Part shown: in pieces, positions 22,353 to 22,445 of the stretch
Layout: every line of letters starts with the position of its first letter
Numbering within the stretch: position 1 is the stretch's first letter
Origin: Nitrosopumilaceae archaeon
GTDB taxonomy: Archaea; Thermoproteota; Nitrososphaeria; Nitrososphaerales; Nitrosopumilaceae
Length of the DNA stretch: 64,000 nt
Assembly (NCBI GenBank): GCA_035631875.1
Contig: DASQHX010000009.1
Span: forward strand, 363,281-427,280
Direction of reading: 5' to 3'
The notes under the pieces: generated by a model
The model's database searches: none
What the model saw: the letters and a program-made list of their open reading frames with translations, nothing else
Told to the model about the DNA's origin: nothing
Program-made: the position numbers and the translations under genes

Positions 22353-22445
22353 GGGCTCGTAGCGCAGAGTCTTATTGACGCGCAACATGGATAGCGCAGT
22401 AGCCTCCTAAGTTACAGGTCGAGGGATCGAAGCCCTCCGAGCCCG
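22353..22445 (+). tRNA. tRNA-Arg (anticodon CCU) with an 18-nt D-loop intron
   Basis: After removing 22368-22385, a clean 75-nt tRNA results: acceptor GGGCTCG/CGAGCCC with discriminator G, D-stem GCGC/GCGC with a GG-containing loop, anticodon stem GTAGC/GTTAC with loop CTCCTAA (CCU, reads AGG), five-base variable loop and T-arm GAGGG/CCCTC. CCA is not encoded. Without removal the D-loop would be 28 nt and impossible. The T-loop begins with A rather than T, a small oddity. Confidence 0.92.
22368..22385 (+). other. Non-canonical tRNA intron with BHB motif
   Basis: The 18-nt intron splits tRNA positions 15 and 16. The pre-tRNA folds as bulge-helix-bulge: a 4-bp central helix GCGC (22362-22365) with GCGC (22380-22383), a 5' bulge AGA (22366-22368, cut AG|A), an inner 3-bp stem GTC/GAC with a 5-nt loop, and a 3' bulge AAC (22384-22386, cut AA|C). 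The resulting G15 can pair with C48, which supports these junctions over shifted ones allowed by the repeated GCGCA. Confidence 0.85.

Follow-up and report, generated by a model that had tools for sequence, protein, structure and literature searches.

The window, a stretch of 64,000 nucleotides from the genome of a Nitrosopumilaceae archaeon, contains on its forward strand (22353–22445) a tRNA gene with the anticodon CCU and 18 extra nucleotides within the D-loop. We read it with high confidence as a functional archaeal tRNA-Arg(CCU) gene carrying one noncanonical intron of the bulge-helix-bulge (BHB) type between positions 15 and 16, which is removed as proposed below. The removal would almost certainly be the work of the ordinary tRNA-splicing enzyme of the cell.

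Detection and setting of the tRNA-Arg(CCU) gene

All the arms of a tRNA were present in the sequence: an acceptor stem of 7 bp, the D-stem GCGC/GCGC, the anticodon loop CUCCUAA and the T-arm GAGGG/CCCUC. The discriminator base is G and CCA is not encoded. ARAGORN did not detect a tRNA in the unspliced sequence 22353–22445, and Rfam returned for the unspliced gene a marginal fragment of 29.3 bits (cut-off 29) in which the D-stem began at the second GCGC. After in silico deletion of nucleotides 22368–22385 ARAGORN detected a complete tRNA-Arg(cct) with four paired stems, which is the behavior of a BHB intron, whose removal leaves the host tRNA complete. The parts of the gene and of its predicted precursor are listed in Table 1.

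Table 1. Features of the interrupted tRNA-Arg(CCU) gene, in coordinates of the window
Feature	Positions	Strand	Basis
5' exon, positions 1-15: acceptor 5' strand, U8 A9, D-stem 5' strand GCGC, A14 G15	22353..22367	+	Sequence; intronless orthologues; ARAGORN on spliced form
D-stem 5' strand G10-C13; pairs with the intron before splicing and with positions 22-25 after it	22362..22365	+	Fold; co-variation
5' bulge A14-G15|A, predicted cut after 22367	22366..22368	+	Fold; orthologues; A14/G15 invariance; published cut rule (PMC4307357)
18-nt intron AGUCUUAUUGACGCGCAA, between positions 15 and 16	22368..22385	+	Absent in orthologues L102, L103 and L104; hairpin co-varies in relatives
Intron hairpin GUC-UUAUU-GAC	22369..22379	+	Co-variation in relatives
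Central helix, intron strand GCGC; first three nucleotides conserved, fourth pair (with G10) not	22380..22383	+	Co-variation; U13-A in L127
3' site AA|C, predicted cut after 22385, no flanking outer helix	22384..22386	+	Sequence; fold; intronless orthologues
3' exon, positions 16-73: remaining D-arm, anticodon arm, variable loop, T-arm, acceptor 3' strand	22386..22445	+	Sequence; orthologues; ARAGORN on spliced form
Anticodon CCU	22406..22408	+	Sequence; ARAGORN on spliced sequence, Arg(cct)

The host genome has a size of 1.76 Mb, and the G+C content of the window is 35%. An ORF located 25 nt upstream of the tRNA gene is one that we take to be nitroreductase-like. Among approximately 45 tRNA matches in this genome, which is rated 99.99% complete, no second Arg(CCU) gene was found; the other tRNA-Arg genes have the anticodons UCU, UCG and GCG. 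Since ARAGORN misses the gene and the Rfam match is marginal, annotation carried out without archaeal intron models would make the genome appear devoid of tRNA-Arg(CCU).

Splice junctions at position 15/16

The gene contains GCGCA as a direct repeat at a distance of 18 nt, and for this reason the sequence alone is ambiguous with regard to the junctions. They were settled by three intronless orthologues, which represent three genera of this family, since these carry as their natural sequence exactly the predicted spliced form GCGCAG|YNUGG, namely GCGCAG-CAUGG (L102), GCGCAG-UAUGG (L103) and GCGCAG-CUUGG (L104). The site is therefore 15/16 and not the canonical 37/38, one nucleotide 3' of the anticodon. 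The host's own tRNA-Arg(UCU), its sister tRNA (AGCUUGGACA), likewise has G15, and because position 48 is a C, a G15-C48 pair is possible.

The repeat leaves room for excision of the same intron by cuts up to 6 nt further upstream, which would yield a product with A15 rather than G15. Removal of 18 nt at six neighboring registers gives one identical product, and ARAGORN likewise accepted it. We nevertheless consider such an excision very unlikely, as every intronless orthologue that was read (L102–L104) had G15, and A14 and G15 were both invariant in 43 distinct genes of the family. Introns of some relatives end in AAA, AAG or AAU, which interrupts the repeat, so that a cut after G15 is the only one that fits. 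The same cut is indicated by the 5' bulge of 3 nt, for which the published rule places cleavage between the second and the third nucleotide (PMC4307357). The original prediction, made from the sequence, had named an arginine isotype with the anticodon CCU, an 18-nt intron in the D-loop at the non-canonical site 15/16 with the cuts AG|A and AA|C, and a G15 able to pair with C48. The ARAGORN assignment of the spliced sequence, together with the empty site and the G15 of the intronless orthologues, agreed with it on all of these points.

Precursor fold and co-variation in relatives

Folded without constraints, the 93-nt precursor has a minimum-energy structure in which the GCGC/GCGC helix of 4 bp, the AGA bulge and the hairpin GUC-UUAUU-GAC are all present. 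The z-score of the whole precursor fold was only -2.1, so that the structural argument is carried by the comparison with related genes. For this comparison a set of 43 distinct genes of the family and a wider set of 113 distinct related genes, with 83 distinct introns, were used. Among the 43 family genes all three pairs of the hairpin (3/3) were altered on both sides. A hairpin of at least 3 bp was present in 107 of the 113 related genes, with many compensatory changes, and 77 of the 83 distinct introns were fully paired at the first three hairpin positions, whereas 1000 shuffles gave a mean of 34 and never more than 42. Co-variation thus revealed the hairpin flanking the 5' bulge that is expected of a BHB intron.

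The pairs that the intron forms with D-stem positions 11–13 were kept in 112/113 genes, and the sole exception (L101) was a register artefact of the script. In one relative (L127) a U13 in the D-stem and an A in the intron replace the C13-G pair, so that exon and intron have changed in a compensatory way. Pairs 11–13 and this change point to a central helix formed by the 5' exon with the intron, as in BHB introns generally. The fourth central pair, G10-C, is present in the window gene and can be made in 52 of the 113 relatives (16/42 in the smaller family set). The length of the intron varied from 15 to 38 nt over the 113 genes, while its position was constant. Conservation of the gene, taken together with co-variation of the hairpin, excludes a chance origin of the structure.

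When the 3' bulge is drawn with 3 nt, A9/A17, U8/U17a and G7/G18 remain unpaired, and there is no outer helix. The precursor has the 4-bp helix and the 5' bulge of a strict hBHBh' motif and lacks the outer helix by the 3' bulge. The absence of that helix beside the 3-nt 3' bulge makes the motif a relaxed BHB whose 5' side is intact. Of the bulge-helix-bulge originally proposed, the 4-bp central helix and the AGA bulge are thus borne out by the minimum-energy fold of this gene, but four base pairs are not a general feature of the intron, given the count for G10-C. A weak outer helix had also been proposed; the motif is indeed relaxed, but the helix is wholly absent and not weak.

Failure of ARAGORN to see the unspliced gene and the marginal Rfam fragment would also be expected if the insert were retained in a tRNA working with an enlarged D-loop, or if the gene were a pseudogene. 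We regard this as extremely improbable: 99.7% of cells in the acceptor, D, anticodon and T stems are paired and compensatory changes occur, the gene is the only one for Arg(CCU) in its genome, and the insert is precisely absent in natural orthologues. Equally improbable is that the D-stem (GCGC...GCGC) was duplicated in tandem by chance, with no intron involved, a reading that the GCGCA repeat of the host genome invites and that the comparison with relatives has already refuted, since other genera have A, U or G as the fourth base of the intron copy, the hairpin elsewhere is different and longer and yet the D-stem pairing and the boundaries persist, and both strands are changed in L127.

Splicing enzymes and proposed mechanism

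Two tRNA_int_endo proteins, of 178 aa and 189 aa, are encoded in the host genome. The 178-aa protein aligned with the catalytic subunit of the Aeropyrum pernix endonuclease (3P1Z) over 175 residues (E 1e-40), the region of the Tyr, His and Lys included, and its catalytic His corresponds to the position mutated in 3AJV. It has a Lys at the place of K44 and another Lys at 46, within the Crenarchaea-specific loop (CSL), residues of which have been linked to broad substrate use (PMC12397907; PMC6379350). The 189-aa protein has no catalytic His and is the second (structural) subunit. Judged by its genes, the host would thus possess an (alpha-beta)2 endonuclease with a CSL, as catalytic and structural subunits and the CSL lysine are all encoded. 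An RtcB gene is also present.

With the outer helix absent and three central pairs only in most relatives, cleavage would, as far as the sequence tells, rely on an enzyme of relaxed specificity. The need for such an enzyme had been anticipated in the original prediction, and it fits both the 3' site without an outer helix and the two-subunit, broad-specificity type that is encoded. More than 100 distinct versions of the intron define the tolerance required of the thaumarchaeal endonuclease, namely three central pairs and no outer helix.

In the mechanism that we propose, the intron's 3' part would pair in the precursor with C11-G12-C13 of the D-stem (here also G10) as GCG/GCGC, and a short hairpin would form within the intron. 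The 5' site would then lie in the 3-nt bulge AG|A and the 3' site in AA|C, and at both of them the two-subunit splicing endonuclease would cut after the second bulge nucleotide. RtcB would then ligate G15 to C16. The released strand of the D-stem could pair with positions 22–25, resulting in a normal cloverleaf, possibly with the G15-C48 pair. We infer that the gene is transcribed, that the transcript is cut and joined in this manner and that the product decodes AGG codons.

Distribution of the intron

The 93-nt gene was matched in 248 of 250 genomes of the same family, a few of these matches being to paralogous tRNAs or intronless copies only. A pattern for the intronless gene gave 31 matches, which were not taken at face value because the pattern also fits introns ending in GCGCAG. 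When only those cases were counted in which the DNA match does not span the intron, approximately 20 of the 250 genomes were without it, as judged from pattern and match extent and with three genes read directly. They belong to the genera g12, g14 and g21, with one further genome from g15. Since g14 and g21 contain both states, the intron was lost several times. When the pattern for the intron-bearing gene was run on named genomes, all the matches listed were thaumarchaeal or came from archaea lacking a name; they included Nitrosopumilus, Nitrosarchaeum, Nitrosotenuis, Nitrosotalea, Cenarchaeum, Nitrosocosmicus, Nitrosopelagicus and others. This range points to a host of the Nitrosopumilaceae type (Thaumarchaeota, class Nitrososphaeria).

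When genomes were sampled across the phylum, 31/34 of those in the class Nitrososphaeria and 4/186 others had the intron-bearing gene, and the reversed pattern gave zero matches in the same sample. Within the phylum the intron is a typical feature of this class and is rare outside it. The four cases outside the class come from three families; they have the identical site and architecture, but their hairpins are quite different. Longer intron hairpins are seen in other families of the class, where the intron still ends GCG/GUG-NNN|; intronless genes were found in families f2 and f10 (L140, L144, L146).

Whether the intron is ancestral to Nitrososphaeria, and possibly older, we judge to be an even question. 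Such an intron would have kept the same phosphate of the same isoacceptor, its sequence and length being free to change. Its presence in 31/34 genomes of the class, the at least three losses and the four same-site cases in three outside families are compatible with this origin; alternatively, there may have been repeated insertion at a favored site. If the intron is ancestral, its versions would make up a large natural collection of endonuclease substrates reduced to the minimum, with only three central pairs and lacking an outer helix.

Other interrupted tRNA genes

Apparent introns were also observed in other tRNA genes of the host genome. A tRNA-Asp(GUC) gene (L074, G000:C11:152815-153086) has an apparent intron of 31 nt, also at 15/16, with the plan AG|A, a hairpin, GUA pairing with U11-A12-U13, and AAA|C; its spliced form was accepted by ARAGORN with one mismatch in the T-stem. 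Five further tRNA genes (L068, L071, L072, L073, L075) were unrecognised by ARAGORN and appeared to be interrupted at noncanonical places, examples being a tRNA-Glu(UUC) with an insert in the T-loop and a tRNA-Trp with two inserts. The host genome thus seems to have several noncanonical introns. ARAGORN called another gene (L066, G000:C9:85425-85728) a tRNA-Ser(aga) with a 29-nt intron. As A34 is unexpected in archaea, a noncanonical intron in a tRNA of different isotype, perhaps Gln(CUG), is more likely.

Outside the host genome, two tRNA-Arg(CCU) genes (L274 in G340:C4; L145 in G294:C1) have an apparent intron at 15/16 and a second insert after the anticodon. In another class of the phylum, three genes with other anticodons, such as CUU (L276, L277, L278), have an apparent 15/16 intron. 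The 3' part of these introns is GAG, fitting a D-stem GCUC, compared with GCG for the D-stem GCGC; this would be the same plan fitted to another D-stem.

Comparison with known introns

The kind of intron described here is already known, and the tRNA-Arg(CCU) case adds an ordinary example to an established class. The novelty implied in the original prediction was not upheld, as such introns have been described and modelled before (PMC8450103, PMC4307357, PMC3293823). tRNAscan-SE 2.0 has a dedicated covariance model trained on thaumarchaeal noncanonical introns, of which 107 are reported (PMC8450103), and which are likewise short BHB introns outside 37/38. Given its near-universal presence in the family, the 15/16 intron of tRNA-Arg(CCU) is very probably among the 107 catalogued there. 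A literature search on thaumarchaeal D-loop introns retrieved nothing direct.

BHB-like introns in the D-arm have been reported for tRNA-Glu(UUC) and tRNA-Glu(CUC) of Sulfolobus tokodaii and for tRNA-Thr(UGU) of A. pernix (PMC4307357), and D-arm introns are also treated in reviews (PMC6379350; PMC12397907). Recombinant endonuclease cleaved the S. tokodaii tRNA-Glu precursors in vitro at the sites that had been predicted, and the borders of the A. pernix tRNA-Thr(UGU) intron match spliced cDNA (PMC4307357). These introns occur in other isotypes, in another class and at differing exact positions. Candidatus Caldiarchaeum subterraneum, which represents a related lineage, has tRNA introns in the D-, V- and T-arms, and the example detailed there is tRNA-Thr(GGU), with introns at 24/25 and 45/46 (PMC3293823). 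With the (alpha-beta)2 endonuclease of A. pernix (3P1Z, 3AJV) the predicted catalytic subunit of the host has in common the catalytic His, the K44 of the CSL and a basic residue at 46.
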